From Pseudomonas morbosilactucae (GTDB lineage: Bacteria; Pseudomonadota; Gammaproteobacteria; Pseudomonadales; Pseudomonadaceae), in NCBI RefSeq assembly GCF_023241715.1, contig NZ_JALQCW010000014.1, positions 1 to 64,000 of the forward strand: a stretch of 64,000 bases of DNA. Direction: 5' to 3'. A program made the position numbers and the translations under genes. Positions 58,189 through 62,664 of this stretch are shown here, in pieces (the stretch's first letter is position 1; each line of letters opens with the position of its first letter). The notes under the pieces were generated by a model, which was not told where the DNA came from, searched no databases, and saw nothing but the letters and a program-made list of their open reading frames with translations.

Positions 58189-58216
58189 ATGCAATTGCAA
58201 TCATTGCAATTGCAAT
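58189..58216. promoter_or_regulatory. TTGCAAT operator array before the E1-fragment gene
   Basis: Two TGCAATTGCAAT elements are arranged as a 25-base perfect palindrome about a central base (58190-58214), making four half-sites. They begin about 55-80 bases before the start at 58270. The core matches the operator before the AceE-type gene, so both are probable targets of the MarR regulator at 59367-59828. Confidence 0.75.
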
Positions 58217-58269
58217 TATATTTGCTCTTCCGCTAGGGTGAGCGCCTCGGATTTTCAGACGGCGCCCCC

Positions 58270-59355
58270 ATGACTGCCTCCATCCCTTCCCGACTCAACA
58301 CCACCCGCACCGGCCAGGCTGCCCTGGCCTGCATCGAGACCCTGCAAGCAGCAAAGCGCGAACCCGGTTCGCCGTTATTCACGGTCATGGAGATTGCCAA
58401 CACCCTGGAGTTGGACCGGCGTGTGGCCAACCAGGCCTGGGTCATCCGCAACCACGGCGAGGCAGGCCCAACCACCCGCATCAGTGCCTGGCCGCTGTGG
58501 TTTTCCCGGGACCGCAGCGAGAAGCCGCTGCTGTACCTGCACAGTGCCAGTTCTTCGGCTCAGCTCTGCGCCCTGGCGGCGGAAGCCACGCGCCGGGGCA
58601 TTTTATGCAACGCCAGCGAAACCCTGACCTCGCCCTGGCCCAAAGGGGCCGAGCCTTCGCTGCCGTTGTGGCTGGCCAGTAACCCCGAGTGCCTGCCCTT
58701 CGACCCGGCGTCCGGCGACGAGGCCCGGGCGATTGTGCTGGAGGCGTTGCAGGCGCTGTATGTGGAGGGTCGCCCGGGGTTCTATTACCTGGCCCTGCAT
58801 GATCGCCACAACGGCCCGGCCCTGGACGAACAACAACGTCGCGCGGCCTTGAAGGGCATGTACCAGGTGGCCCGATACGGCCCTGCAGACAGCACCTGCC
58901 AGGTACGCTTGCTGGGTGCCGGGCAAGCCTTTGCCGAAGTGCGGGAAGCGGCCCTCTTGCTGGCTGAAGAATGGGGCGTGGCGGTGCAGCTGTGGAGTTG
59001 CCCGAGCTACACGCGACTGGCCAGGGAAGCGGCCAGTGCCGAGCGCTGGAACCGCTTGCATCCGTGCCTCGACAAGCGCGACAGCCACCTGTTGCGCTGC
59101 CTGGGAGACAGCCGAGCGCCGGTGCTGGCGGTGACCGGCTACGGGCAAAGTGTGGCGGATCAGCTCAGGAGGTTTGTGCAGTCATCCTTTAGCGCCATCG
59201 GTGCCGACTCCCTGGGTGGGAGCACCGACCCGCGTCAAGGCGCTGCGCCCCAACGCCACTGGATCAGCGTGCTGGCCCTCAAGGCTCTGGCTGATGAACA
59301 ATGCCTGCCCCAGGTGACAGTGGAGCAAGCGCTGCAGCGTTACCGCCTCGGATGA
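58270..59355 (+). CDS. Stand-alone C-terminal part of an AceE-type E1 (transketolase C-like)
   Basis: Protein of 361 residues aligned by eye to the C-terminal third of the AceE-like protein at 59989. Matches include FYYLALHDRHN to YYYITLLNENY, QVRLLGAGQAFAEVREAALL to RVQLLGSGSILREVMAAGEL, SAERWNRLHP to QAAERWNLLHP, and HWISVLALKALADEQCLP to HFIVLAALKALADDGELP. The TPP-binding domain (GDGEMDQPES ... NCN) is absent, so it cannot be a complete E1. It may be a regulatory or partner subunit, or a diverged remnant kept under selection. It carries the MarR-type operator upstream. Divergence from the full E1 is substantial, which argues against a recent duplication. Confidence 0.8.
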   Translation: MTASIPSRLNTTRTGQAALACIETLQAAKREPGSPLFTVMEIANTLELDRRVANQAWVIRNHGEAGPTTRISAWPLWFSRDRSEKPLLYLHSASSSAQLCALAAEATRRGILCNASETLTSPWPKGAEPSLPLWLASNPECLPFDPASGDEARAIVLEALQALYVEGRPGFYYLALHDRHNGPALDEQQRRAALKGMYQVARYGPADSTCQVRLLGAGQAFAEVREAALLLAEEWGVAVQLWSCPSYTRLAREAASAERWNRLHPCLDKRDSHLLRCLGDSRAPVLAVTGYGQSVADQLRRFVQSSFSAIGADSLGGSTDPRQGAAPQRHWISVLALKALADEQCLPQVTVEQALQRYRLG

Positions 59356-59366
59356 CGGCTTGCGCC

Positions 59367-59828
59367 TCAGCGTTTTCCGGCTTCCTGGCCCGAGGCCCGG
59401 GCCAGGTTTGCAGTGCGCTCCAGGGCGTCGGCAAACCCCTGTTTCTGCTCGGGCTCCAACTGGGAAAGAAACAGCTCGTCGACGGTGCTTTCGTAGATTT
59501 TCCACATCTTCTTGCGCAGGTTGCGCCCCGCTTCAGTGATGCTGACAAAGGCCGCACGACCATCGCCGTCGCACCGCGAACGAGCGACCAGGCCGTCCTT
59601 TTCCAGGCGGTCCACCAGGCGCGTCAGGTTGTAGCGTTCGATCGCCAACACATCGGCCAGTTCATGCATGCGCCGGGTGCCTTCGGGGCCGCTTTCCAAG
59701 CCCCACAAGGCGTCGTACCAGGCGTAGGCCGGCAACTCGGCAGCGGCCAGGCGGCGCTCGATTTCACGGATGACCGTCCTGTGAGCCCGGACAAAACGGA
59801 ACCACACATCAGGCTCTTTTGAAGACAT
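59367..59828 (-). CDS. MarR-family transcriptional regulator
   Basis: Winged-helix regulator of 153 residues starting at MSSKEPDVWFRFVR (59828); the frame extends upstream without support. DNA-binding core: TRRMHELADVLAIERYNLTR with LVDRLEKDGLVARSRCDGDG as the wing. It is divergent from the AceE-type gene and the shared gap contains the perfect palindrome GTAATTGCAATTGCAATTAC, the likely operator. A related site lies in front of the E1-fragment gene. Confidence 0.9.
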   Translation of the reverse strand: MSSKEPDVWFRFVRAHRTVIREIERRLAAAELPAYAWYDALWGLESGPEGTRRMHELADVLAIERYNLTRLVDRLEKDGLVARSRCDGDGRAAFVSITEAGRNLRKKMWKIYESTVDELFLSQLEPEQKQGFADALERTANLARASGQEAGKR

Positions 59829-59894
59829 GCCACACCATCCGAGGGATTGAAGAAAGGTTGCAATAGTAGCGCATGGCGGGATAGATTCGGCCAT

Positions 59895-59914
59895 GTAATT
59901 GCAATTGCAATTAC
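59895..59914. promoter_or_regulatory. MarR operator between marR and the AceE-type gene
   Basis: GTAATTGCAATTGCAATTAC is a perfect 20-bp palindrome, 66 bases from the MarR start and 74 bases before the E1 start. The core TTGCAATTGCAA is shared with the sites at 58189-58216. Confidence 0.85.
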
Positions 59915-59988
59915 TTTTATCCGTGCGCCACGCCCCTCGATCCCACAAGGATCCGCGCATTGGCAACCCGCTCAACCTGGAGCCCGGC

Positions 59989-62664
59989 ATGACCCAGAAC
60001 AACAGTGCAACCCTCGATCACGACCCACAGGAAACCCGCGAATGGCTCGACTCCATCGAGTCGGTGCTGAGCGCCGAAGGGCGCCCGCGGGCCCATTACC
60101 TGATCGACCAGTTGCTGGACTTCGACGTGGCCCGCCATGGTGACTTCCATGGCCGCGTGACCACGCCCTACATCAACAGCATTGCCCCCGAGCGCCAACT
60201 GCCCTACCCCGGCGACCTGGAACTGGAGCGCAAGCTCAACGCCTTTATCCGCTGGAACGCCATGGCCATGGTGCTGCGCGCCGGCAAGCATTCCGGGGTG
60301 GGCGGGCATATCGCGACCTACGCCTCGGCGGCGGTGCTCTACGACGTCGGCTTCGATCACTTTTTCCGCGGGCGTACCGAGCACTTCGACGGCGACATGG
60401 TGTACATCCAGGGCCACTCGTCACCAGGCATCTATGGCCGCGCCTACATGGAAGGCCGAATCAGCGCTGCGCAACTGGACAACTTCCGCCGCGAGGCCGA
60501 TGGCCAGGGCATCTCTTCCTACCCGCACCCACGGCTGATGCCGGACTTCTGGCAGTTCCCTACGGTGTCCATGGGCCTGGGCCCGATCACTGCGGCGTAT
60601 CAGGCGCGCTTTATGCGCTACCTGGAACTGCGCGGCCTGAAACAGCACCAGGGGCGCAAGGTCTGGGCCTTCCTCGGCGACGGCGAGATGGACCAGCCGG
60701 AATCCCTGGCCGCGATTTCCTTGGCCGGGCGCGAAAAGCTCGACAACCTGATTTTCGTGGTCAACTGCAACCTGCAACGCCTGGACGGCCCGGTGCGCGG
60801 TAACGCCAAGGTGATCCAGGAGTTTGAAAGCCTGTACCGCGCGGCCGGCTGGAAGGTGATCAAGGTGGTCTGGGGCAGCGGCTGGGACGCCCTGCTGGAA
60901 AAGGACCGCAGCGGCCTGCTGCGCCAGCGCATGATGGAGTGCGTAGACGGCGACTATCAGAACTACAAGTCCCAGAACGGCGCCTATGTGCGCGAACACT
61001 TCTTCGGTAAATACCCGGAGTTGCTGGAACTGGTGGCCGACCTCTCCGACGACGATATCTGGAAACTCTCCCGAGGCGGCCATGACCCACTCAAGGTCTA
61101 CAACGCCTATGCCGCCGCCGTGGCCCATTCCGGCCAGCCGACAGTGATCCTGGCGAAAACCGTCAAGGGCTTCGGCATGGGCGAGGCCGGCGAAGGCCAG
61201 AACATCAATCACCAGTTGAAGAAAATGGGCGCCGACGCGGTGCGGGCCTTCCGCGATCGCTTCGACCTGCCGGTCAGCGACGAGCAACTGGCCGAACTGC
61301 CCTACCTGAAACCTGACCCGGACAGTGCCGAAGGGCGTTATTTCGCCAGTTGCCGGGGGCGCCTGGGCGGCCATGTACCGGCCCGCAGCAATGATTGCCA
61401 GGCCCTGGCGATTCCGCCGCTGGAGGCTTTTGCCAACCAGCTCAAGGACACCGGCGAGCGCGCGATTTCCACCACCATGGCCTTTGTGCGCATCCTCGGC
61501 ACCCTGCTCAAGGACCCGCAGATCGGCAAACTGGTGGTGCCCATCGTGCCGGACGAATCGCGGACCTTCGGTATGGAAAGCCTGTTCCGCCAGATCGGCA
61601 TCCACTCCGCCGTCGGCCAACTCTACACGCCGCAGGACGCCGGGCAACTGAGCTATTACAAGGAGAGCAAGGACGGCCAGATCATGCAGGAAGGGCTCAA
61701 CGAGTCCGGGGCGATTTCCTCGTGGATTGCCGCCAGCACCGCGTACAGCAACCACGGGGTGATGACCCTGCCCTTCTACATCTTCTATTCGATGTTCGGT
61801 TTCCAGCGCGTCGGCGACCTGGCCTGGGCAGCCGGCGATGCTCGGGCCCGGGGCTTCCTGCTGGGCGCCACCGCAGGCCGCACCACCCTGATGGGTGAAG
61901 GCTTGCAACACGACGATGGCCACAGCCATGTGATGGCGTCCCTGGTGCCGTGCTGCGTGGCCTACGACCCGACCTTCGCCTACGAATTGGCGGTGATCAT
62001 CCAGGAAGGCATGCGGCGCATGTACGTCGAGCAGGAAGACATCTACTACTACATCACCCTGCTCAACGAGAACTACCCGCACCCGGGGATGCCGGATGGT
62101 GCCGAGGACGGGATTCTCAAGGGGCTGTACCGCCTCCACGGCCACGACGCTCCCGGCCAGGACCAGCCGCGGGTGCAGTTGCTGGGCAGTGGTTCGATCC
62201 TGCGGGAAGTGATGGCGGCCGGGGAATTGCTGTTGGCCGATTTTGGCGTGTCGAGCGACGTCTGGAGTGCCACCAGCCTGACCGAACTGCGCCGTGCCGG
62301 GCAGGCCGCAGAACGCTGGAACCTGCTGCACCCGGAACAGCCACCGCGCTCAAGCCATGTGCAGGACTGCCTCAAGGACCAAGTGGGCCCGGTGGTGGTG
62401 GCCACGGACTACATGAAGATCTACGCCGACCAGATCCGCCCCTTCGTTGACGGGCGGCGATTCGTGGCCTTGGGCACCGATGGTTTCGGTCAGTCCGATA
62501 CCCGGGAAACCCTGCGTCGTTTCTTCGAGGTGGATCGGCACTTTATCGTCCTGGCGGCCTTGAAGGCTCTGGCCGATGACGGTGAACTGCCTTACAGCCG
62601 AGTCGCGCAAGCCATCAGCCGCTATGGGATCGACATCAACAAAGTCGACCCTGTCACGGTCTGA
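59989..62664 (+). CDS. AceE-type (homodimeric) 2-oxoacid dehydrogenase E1
   Basis: TPP-dependent E1 of 891 residues, the length of AceE/MdeB, catalysing oxidative decarboxylation of pyruvate or a related 2-oxo acid such as 2-oxobutyrate. TPP motif: FLGDGEMDQPES ... FVVNCN near residues 230-260. The central domain contains FYIFYSMFGFQRVGDLAWAA and GEGLQHDDGHSHVMAS, and the C-terminal domain VQLLGSGSILREVM. The start at 59989 (MTQNNSATLD) is preferred to upstream codons. There is no aceF beside it, so it is likely a second, inducible E1 paralogue (MdeB-like) rather than the housekeeping enzyme. It is controlled by the divergent MarR. Confidence 0.92.
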   Translation: MTQNNSATLDHDPQETREWLDSIESVLSAEGRPRAHYLIDQLLDFDVARHGDFHGRVTTPYINSIAPERQLPYPGDLELERKLNAFIRWNAMAMVLRAGKHSGVGGHIATYASAAVLYDVGFDHFFRGRTEHFDGDMVYIQGHSSPGIYGRAYMEGRISAAQLDNFRREADGQGISSYPHPRLMPDFWQFPTVSMGLGPITAAYQARFMRYLELRGLKQHQGRKVWAFLGDGEMDQPESLAAISLAGREKLDNLIFVVNCNLQRLDGPVRGNAKVIQEFESLYRAAGWKVIKVVWGSGWDALLEKDRSGLLRQRMMECVDGDYQNYKSQNGAYVREHFFGKYPELLELVADLSDDDIWKLSRGGHDPLKVYNAYAAAVAHSGQPTVILAKTVKGFGMGEAGEGQNINHQLKKMGADAVRAFRDRFDLPVSDEQLAELPYLKPDPDSAEGRYFASCRGRLGGHVPARSNDCQALAIPPLEAFANQLKDTGERAISTTMAFVRILGTLLKDPQIGKLVVPIVPDESRTFGMESLFRQIGIHSAVGQLYTPQDAGQLSYYKESKDGQIMQEGLNESGAISSWIAASTAYSNHGVMTLPFYIFYSMFGFQRVGDLAWAAGDARARGFLLGATAGRTTLMGEGLQHDDGHSHVMASLVPCCVAYDPTFAYELAVIIQEGMRRMYVEQEDIYYYITLLNENYPHPGMPDGAEDGILKGLYRLHGHDAPGQDQPRVQLLGSGSILREVMAAGELLLADFGVSSDVWSATSLTELRRAGQAAERWNLLHPEQPPRSSHVQDCLKDQVGPVVVATDYMKIYADQIRPFVDGRRFVALGTDGFGQSDTRETLRRFFEVDRHFIVLAALKALADDGELPYSRVAQAISRYGIDINKVDPVTV

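Follow-up and report, generated by a model that had tools for sequence, protein, structure and literature searches.

Why would a bacterium keep, beside a complete pyruvate dehydrogenase E1, a separate gene for part of such an enzyme, with a regulator gene set between the two? The question is raised by a locus of Pseudomonas morbosilactucae that lies within the 64,000-nucleotide stretch of DNA analyzed here (hereafter, the window).

A fragment, a MarR regulator and a second E1

The locus begins with a plus-strand ORF of 361 aa (positions 58270-59355) that appears to encode an E1-beta-like pseudo-half consisting of Pyr and C-terminal domains (the fragment). It is followed by a MarR-family regulator gene on the minus strand (59367-59828, 153 aa) and, on the plus strand, by a gene for a second homodimeric-type E1 of the AceE family of pyruvate dehydrogenases (59989-62664, 891 aa). 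The first-pass annotation of this DNA had described a full E1, a separate fragment, a marR gene between them and a common operator in front of both, and we found every one of these elements. Its remark that aceF is missing beside the second E1 also holds, as no E2 gene was found among the surrounding ORFs.

The fragment, marR and the second E1 form a conserved module in Pseudomonas and Burkholderiales. All three genes are present in this order, with marR between the other two, in 73 of 80 named loci from these groups. Among sampled Pseudomonas genomes, an E1 of the second type is present in 48 of 50 that bear the fragment and in 8 of 248 that do not. The expectation that the pair would remain linked and undecayed in related strains is thus mostly borne out; the part that did not stand concerns the 8 of 56 E1 genomes without an intact fragment, one of which retains a remnant. 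Fragment and E1 are apart in a few genomes; wherever a named genome has the fragment at a locus of its own (four cases), the second E1 type is still present. One genome (G080) has the fragment and marR without an E1 of this type, and in two Bordetella ansorpii genomes a hydroxyacid-dehydrogenase-like gene occupies the E1 slot beside the fragment and marR.

The regulator contains a winged-helix domain (Pfam MarR_2, 47.9 bits; cut-off 27), and a motif search located its candidate operators, all given on the plus strand. An exact copy of the 12-bp palindrome TTGCAATTGCAA precedes the fragment gene (58204-58215) and is itself preceded, at a distance of 15 bp, by a copy with one mismatch, ATGCAATTGCAA (58189-58200), forming a tandem whose 15-bp spacing recurs in many homologous loci. 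A second exact copy lies in the divergent marR/E1 gap (59899-59910), overlapped by a copy with two mismatches, ATGTAATTGCAA (59893-59904), that is weak alone. The tandem overlaps a putative sigma-70-like promoter (TTGCAA-16-TATATT, 58195-58222), a consensus match alone at 9 of 12 positions, with one such promoter found against 0.3 expected in shuffles.

Within the window, the palindrome is modestly unusual (six matches at two or fewer mismatches, a number reached in 7 of 100 shuffles); its credibility as a real site comes from conservation across loci. Of the 80 named loci, 77 have a TTGCAATTGCAA-type site with at most one mismatch ahead of the fragment, no more than about 160 bp away, and all 76 that possess marR have one between marR and E1, placing a conserved palindrome at the promoters of both the regulator and its predicted targets. 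Only one other such match occurs elsewhere in these loci (1,282,254 bp). Upstream sites also accompany 48 of 49 fragments in the genus set. In the genomes with a split module (G104, G110, G302 and G299), fragment and E1 both retain a site, and at L050, L052 and L151 it is the sole match of this quality within 15 kb. The proposed co-regulation of fragment and E1 is therefore backed by conserved predicted operator sites. The window's own genome (7.23 Mb) contains four exact copies of the palindrome, the module's two being intergenic and the other two inside ORFs, so that we rejected a wider regulon based on exact sites; 16 further one-mismatch places occur besides the module's one.

The fragment and the second E1 as proteins

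The first-pass annotation held that the fragment matches only the C-terminal third of E1. This is accurate for the part easily recognized by sequence, where the C-terminal domain is the sole Pfam match, but not for the fold. The predicted model (pLDDT 91, pTM 0.90) aligns to E. coli E1 residues 460-877, which comprise the Pyr and C-terminal domains (Z 33.9 by structure comparison), and to these alone, leaving no counterpart of the PP (ThDP diphosphate) domain. A score of 149.4 bits against TIGR00759 (aceE), under the cut-off of 859.9, sets the fragment outside the homodimeric E1 family. In a global profile alignment that is uncertain in a gapped stretch, the equivalents of E571 (the catalytic glutamate), Y599, F602 and H640 are not kept. 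We regard the fragment, on its sequence, as an E1-derived protein that is predicted to be catalytically dead, which is what a partner or regulatory subunit would look like.

The E1-beta subunits of heterotetrameric E1 enzymes have a Pyr plus C two-domain layout, and the modeled fragment, like the beta half of a split transketolase (6yaj, Z 21.4), presents these domains as a separate chain. It differs from both in being nearest to the homodimeric AceE line, probably without the ThDP-activating glutamate, and no separate gene for a PP-domain (alpha) chain adjoins it.

Compared with E1, the fragment has diverged more quickly (median distances 0.50 and 0.18), and in a few loci (L037, L053, L085 and L088) it carries a stop or is reduced by deletion or to a remnant, as might be expected of a decaying duplicate. 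We give that reading practically no chance. Omega values of 0.07-0.21 indicate purifying selection in all 15 of the close fragment pairs chosen for the calculation, the frame is open in 48 of the 50 copies that were read from the genus (30 of the 48 stop-free proteins entered our fragment alignment), the operator is conserved, and the fold is compact and confidently modeled.

The second E1 scores 1413.6 bits against TIGR00759, well above the 859.9 cut-off, and like E. coli AceE it keeps its active-site residues. Numbering follows the E. coli E1 active-site list (H106 to H640); that of E571 and E235 fits PDB titles. Of 28 active-site positions checked, all are kept except for conservative changes, and H106, H142, D230, N258, N260, K392, H407, E522, E571, Y599 and H640 are identical in 54 of 54 E1 rows, some of which are genes counted twice because they were reached via two loci. 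The underlying alignment holds the window and 52 of the 80 named loci (L161 and L171 were left out for a stop codon, the rest as redundant). Unlike E. coli AceE, the window E1 has its own MarR and no adjacent aceF, and in a tree of 20 fragments and 27 E1s its type forms a clade apart from housekeeping AceE, from which 21 fixed differences distinguish it. Few of these adjoin the active site (F110Y, E235Q, I391V, A572S and E641D). A housekeeping-type aceE sits on another contig of the window's genome, and the window E1 is 58-62% identical to it. The second E1 thus appears to be an AceE-type enzyme with intact catalytic residues, predicted to decarboxylate pyruvate together with E2 and E3.

In P. 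putida, the mdeRAB genes likewise pair an additional AceE-like E1 with a regulator of its own. The score of the window E1 against the corresponding MdeB-type family (TIGR03186, AKGDH_not_PDH), however, is 1255.1 bits, beneath the cut-off of 1408.3, and we rejected an MdeB-type identity.

Association with azomycin genes

Three features of the module's surroundings were absent from the first-pass annotation: the variety of contexts in which the module is found, a glutathione transferase gene, and a tie to genes for azomycin (2-nitroimidazole). The contexts are genomically unrelated, and no catabolic or transport genes accompany the module in the neighborhoods of homologous loci. The glutathione transferase lies beside the fragment in 14 of the 80 named loci, 8 of which are without azomycin genes. 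In one Burkholderiales family, 8 of 10 loci have it there.

RohP-like azomycin genes are present in 14 of 298 sampled Pseudomonas genomes, 13 of which carry the fragment, versus 37 of the 284 others (Fisher p 2.4e-10, a value that overstates independence because the genomes are related). In 11 of the 14 the fragment adjoins azomycin genes, the linkage of a spare copy of the presumed target to producer genes that self-resistance would entail. The exceptions include one genome without the fragment (G288) and one in which it is unlinked (G171). Roh genes were assigned by family matches, gene order and the presence of luxRI, rather than by comparison with reference Roh sequences. They lie beside the module in 9 of the 80 named loci; most carriers do not have them there, and the window's own genome has no RohP match. 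Outside Pseudomonas the tie is weak: among 268 genomes of one Burkholderiales family, RohP occurs in 2 and the fragment in 10, with both found, unlinked, in a single genome (p 0.07).

The linked loci have the same kinds of genes beside luxRI as the rohPQRST azomycin cluster described in PMC12713392, which in P. syringae B728a spans Psyr_1622-Psyr_1614, and they add the module across luxR, a neighbor not treated in the available part of that account. The terms pyruvate dehydrogenase, aceE and MarR do not occur in its text. By extrapolation from KUIN-1 (L164), the module in B728a may lie beside ahlR. The locus tags at which we would expect the module, sought along with the guessed tags PSPTO_3869 and CD58_RS05010, gave no text match in open-license PMC papers.

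What the module may do

We infer, rather than observe, the function of the module. The first-pass suggestion that the fragment is a partner or regulatory subunit of the second E1 is supported in part: the pair and its sites are conserved, and the fragment is predicted to be an inactive E1 derivative. Our preferred explanation, held tentatively and at somewhat less than an even chance, is that the module supplies an inducible backup pyruvate dehydrogenase E1 together with a dead partner half, guarding against a metabolite that damages E1. MarR would repress from the TTGCAATTGCAA palindromes the fragment on one side and marR and E1 on the other until the metabolite releases it. The spare, fully equipped E1 could then replace housekeeping AceE, using the common E2 and E3. 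Having apparently lost the ThDP-activating residues, the fragment would act as a dead partner or decoy, pairing with E1 chains or holding the inhibitor and so aiding E1 survival. The most likely damaging compound is azomycin itself or one of the 2-oxo acids in its pathway, which many carriers of the linked form may make; the remaining carriers, the window's organism among them, might use the module against competitors' products.

The presence of the module beside azomycin genes in several bacteria suggests that it may protect from such a poison. Mupirocin producers carry a second IleRS, which confers self-resistance as a duplicated insensitive target. As in such systems, the module provides a spare essential enzyme that adjoins antibiotic genes in producers and stands by itself elsewhere; it differs in including an E1-derived dead half and in that insensitivity of the spare E1 is hypothetical. 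To our knowledge, no azomycin target of the pyruvate dehydrogenase kind has been described, and we found no published azomycin action on pyruvate dehydrogenase in the open-license PMC literature. The varied contexts, the neighboring glutathione transferase and the RohP association count in favor of protection. Counted against it are the E1 genomes without an intact fragment, the scarcity of fixed E1 differences near the active site, the many carriers without nearby azomycin genes, the window's own genome among those without RohP, and the exceptions G288 and G171.

A rival reading is a metabolic module that confers no resistance. Under some particular condition detected by MarR, the spare E1 would decarboxylate pyruvate or a different 2-oxo acid, and the fragment, as a regulatory pseudo-subunit, would tune its activity or E2 docking. 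The kept active site, the aceE rather than MdeB-type score, the distance of most modules from azomycin genes and the 8 of 56 genomes that dispense with an intact fragment all agree with this, and the azomycin link could reflect shared quorum regulation or the pyruvate expected from the pathway's retro-aldolase. We nevertheless consider it possible but doubtful, since catabolic and transport genes do not accompany the module, many loci include a glutathione transferase, and the strong association with azomycin genes within Pseudomonas hints at protection, not metabolism alone. That association might itself be functionless, the module having been caught once beside a mobile cluster and carried along. 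Roh-linked fragments share one clade, together with unlinked ones, so that the counts may reflect few independent linkings, and RohP genomes of other kinds (G288, G171 and two Burkholderiales) are unlinked. Yet the side of the module on which the roh genes lie varies: in most linked loci it is that of the fragment/glutathione transferase, but in L139, L224 and L225 it is that of E1. The link thus either survived a rearrangement or arose by one; given this and the 11 of 14 linked RohP genomes, we judge hitch-hiking rather unlikely. It is quite improbable that the fragment works alone, for example as a ligand-binding protein through which the inducer is supplied or cleared, with merely a regulon in common with E1. 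Separate fragment and E1 loci, the B. ansorpii replacement and G080 would fit, but the second E1 type is somewhere in 48 of 50 fragment genomes, including all four with a separated fragment, and the fragment is E1-like in both fold and sequence.

A bolder form of the protective explanation, which we think unlikely, holds that E1 is the true target of azomycin, or of its precursor 2-oxo acid, in aerobes. The mobile module would then combine an insensitive E1, a protective dead half and a MarR protein that senses this compound, and with it non-producers would defend themselves against producers. If so, a cellular target would be named for 2-nitroimidazole in aerobic cells, the tolerance of azomycin-producing pseudomonads to their own product would be explained, and it would become visible how a homodimeric E1 can evolve into a dead E1-beta-like partner. 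On a modest reading, the second E1 of many Pseudomonas and Burkholderiales has a co-regulated pseudo-subunit of its own, an arrangement of which we found no prior account in the open-license PMC literature.

An anti-phage identity was rejected: PADLOC models gave no match for the fragment, E1 or glutathione transferase, and the one obtained for MarR, of HTH type, fell below the threshold (E 0.00093). Spread by plasmids was likewise rejected, on the 10 listed of 75 matching plasmid records. Coverage of the fragment reaches 80% or more in one of them, a 3.5-Mb Burkholderia arboris replicon; the other nine cover 61-70% of the query, the portion common to full E1, and several are annotated as aceE or mdeB.

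Three linked genes and a shared operator

The module in the window is made up of the fragment gene (58270-59355, + strand), marR (59367-59828, - strand) and the gene for the second AceE-type E1 (59989-62664, + strand), in that order. An exact copy of the 12-bp palindrome TTGCAATTGCAA lies 55 bp upstream of the fragment start, with an imperfect extra copy 15 bp before it, and another exact copy falls inside the divergent marR/E1 gap. A sigma-70-like promoter match before the fragment (58195-58222; consensus match only) overlaps the operators, an arrangement that fits repression. Within the window considered by itself, the motif stands out only modestly (six matches at two mismatches, a count reached by 7 of 100 shuffles), and the remaining exact sites of the genome, outside the module, are all inside ORFs. 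It is conservation across loci that places the predicted operator beyond chance. Using a fragment profile, we gathered 80 named loci, the best 80 of 103 relatives. Allowing no more than one mismatch, a site is present in the roughly 160 bp upstream of the fragment in 77 of these 80 and in the marR-E1 gap of all 76 that carry marR; the other 1,282,254 bp of these loci contain one match of such quality. Among the 298 sampled Pseudomonas genomes, the site is found at 48 of 49 fragments, the exception (L055) having two mismatches. The proposal in the first-pass annotation that the same operator precedes both fragment and E1 is thus borne out. Where tandem copies precede the fragment (L036-L042 and other tandem-site loci), their starts are often separated by 15 bp, equal to one and a half turns of the helix.

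The full set of three genes, ordered and oriented as in the window, is present in 73 of the best 80 of 103 relatives. Of the others, three have the fragment and marR only (L124, with no long E1 match at the locus, L148 and L158) and four the fragment only (L128, L149, L151 and L168; the sequences of L128 and L168 stop shortly past it). Carriers among these 80 include Pseudomonas, Achromobacter, Bordetella ansorpii, Pandoraea, Massilia and Burkholderia, and further Pseudoduganella, Herbaspirillum, Cupriavidus, Janthinobacterium and Paraburkholderia. The genus loci have the three genes in order, as in the window, in 44 of 49 cases. With this E1 type defined by at least 76% identity and at least 1590 bits (the next band reaches at most 1247 bits), the 298 genomes contain it in 56, the fragment in 50 and both in 48 (Fisher p 2e-44, not corrected for relatedness). 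Conservation of the pair across Pseudomonas, part of the check proposed earlier, holds well from the fragment's side, where 48 of 50 genomes have the E1, and less strictly from the other, where 8 of 56 E1 genomes are without an intact fragment (G279, G282, G090, G165, G281, G213, G086 and G015; G281 retains a remnant). The two fragment genomes without a full E1 are G234, in which it is internally deleted, and G080; G087 has mere remnants of both genes.

In three genomes the fragment is apart from marR-E1 (G104, G110 and G302), and in G299 the E1 is apart from fragment-marR; both halves keep the site in each. At L050, L052 and L151, the exact site beside the fragment is the sole one with at most one mismatch in a 15-kb stretch. 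Co-regulation therefore seems to outlast the loss of shared position, and the sites kept at separated halves are the strongest evidence for the genes working together. In two Bordetella ansorpii genomes the E1 is located elsewhere, and a hydroxyacid-dehydrogenase-like gene (NAD_binding_2; L148:9721-10632, L158:9727-10638), divergent from marR, occupies its place beside fragment and marR.

The E1 and its half-length relative

With 1413.6 bits to TIGR00759 (cut-off 859.9), the window protein is confirmed as a full AceE-type E1. Every catalytic residue examined is conserved in 54 of 54 rows; mild substitutions occur at S109 (T in 46 of 54) and I569 (L in 34 of 54). This E1 type and housekeeping AceE have different fixed residues at 21 positions, including F110Y, E235Q, I391V, A572S and E641D beside the active site and two, A43D and G47H, in the N-terminal part. 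The protein is expected to function as a pyruvate-type E1. The genome's housekeeping-type aceE, on contig C123, is 58-62% identical to it. That gene (G000:C123:140946-143584; L094:6947-9585) reads in two frames that join at about residue 365; an assembly error may be the cause, because G071, of the same species, has two E1 matches at E <1e-200. A third, perhaps MdeB-like, AceE-like type in other Pseudomonas genomes (L086, L087, L090, L091 and L093) is 54-56% identical to the window E1 and forms its own clade in the tree.

The fragment had been described as matching only the C-terminal third of an E1. This is so for the TIGR00759 match (149.4 bits, profile positions 644-875 only), but the predicted fold extends further: the AlphaFold2 model (53 sequences; mean pLDDT 91.0, pTM 0.90) matches E. 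coli E1 over residues 460-877 (Z 33.9, 342 aligned residues, rmsd 3.0). The next structural matches are phosphoketolases and transketolases, and the split-transketolase beta half 6yaj matches at Z 21.4. Because the model aligns with both that E1 region and the beta half, the fragment is predicted to be a Pyr + C half, more than the last third of an E1. Pyr + C is the layout of an E1-beta subunit. No fragment equivalent was found at E571, Y599, F602 or H640 in a global profile alignment, which is uncertain in the gapped N-terminal stretch. Omega values of 0.07-0.21 for the fragment (15 close pairs) and 0.01-0.07 for the E1 (the 14 of those pairs with both E1s at hand) indicate that the fragment is constrained yet faster-evolving than the E1. 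A tree of the common C-terminal part, taking in 20 fragments and 27 E1s of three types, separates 20 of 20 fragments from 27 of 27 E1s by a branch with full support; given the long branches, the exact origin of the fragments in it is unsure.

Azomycin-type genes beside the module and a possible protective role

A comparison of flanks across loci found no constant neighbour outside the three genes; many fluorescens-group loci share one set of flanks, and other loci have different ones. Two neighbours recur in unrelated places, a glutathione transferase and an azomycin-type cluster with LuxR. The transferase, a sub-cut-off match to a GSH-dependent disulfide bond oxidoreductase model, is divergent beside the fragment in 14 of the best 80 of 103 loci; 8 of these 14 lack roh genes. 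Within one Burkholderiales family it is present at 8 of the 10 loci that have the fragment. Homologues of it in the window's own genome are all distant, none exceeding 44% identity.

The azomycin cluster rohPQRST adjoins luxRI in Pseudomonas (PMC12713392). The recurrent cluster comprises LuxR, usually LuxI, an MppP-like PLP enzyme (TIGR04462, 169.9 bits; cut-off 450), a DapA-like aldolase, DUF6190 and a haem-oxygenase-like iron enzyme, and appears to have the rohPQRST make-up, as assigned by families, order and luxRI. At E <=1e-80, RohP is present in 14 of 298 Pseudomonas genomes; 13 of these 14 have the fragment, versus 37 of 284 others. The roh genes adjoin the module in 11 of the 14, mostly on the fragment/transferase side and in L139, L224 and L225 on the E1 side. 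Of the remaining three, G212 has roh genes and module both near contig ends, G171 has them at separate places, and G288 lacks the fragment. A LuxR neighbour is present in 12 RohP genomes (absent in G171 and G288), and 12 of these 12 have the fragment, a split chosen post hoc. Among 268 genomes of one Burkholderiales family, RohP occurs in 2 and the fragment in 10, with both in 1, unlinked (p 0.07). RohP had no match in the window's genome, or in 71 of the 80 named loci (best 80 of 103) within the locus DNA examined.

The module combines conserved genes and sites with a constrained, probably dead half and an intact E1. AceE E1s, E1-beta-like halves, MarR operators and duplicated-target resistance are known kinds. 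Among the papers searched, none gave an account of a pseudo-half and an E1 under one MarR, or of such a module lying with azomycin genes; PMC12713392 covers the roh cluster with luxRI, and its text nowhere mentions pyruvate dehydrogenase, aceE or MarR. In the most likely mode of action, MarR would keep both promoters, and its own gene, repressed until a ligand releases it, whereupon the E1 would replace or supplement AceE on the common E2 and the fragment would pair with E1 chains or bind the inhibitor.

The main rival is a purely metabolic role. Three observations lead us to prefer protection: the glutathione transferase, the variety of contexts and the tie to azomycin genes. Some intermediates of the azomycin pathway are 2-oxo acids, which would suit E1 as the victim; the literature search returned no report that azomycin acts on pyruvate dehydrogenase.

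A second kind of RohP-like cluster (RohP identity 64-66%; L221, L222, L250 and L251, from two Pseudomonas and two Burkholderiales genomes) has no match to the main kind's LuxR/LuxI and is unlinked to the module. The P. syringae quorum regulon is described as nine genes, all near ahlR (PMC7048289, citing earlier work), and in the related strain KUIN-1 (L164) the module sits at the ahlR place.
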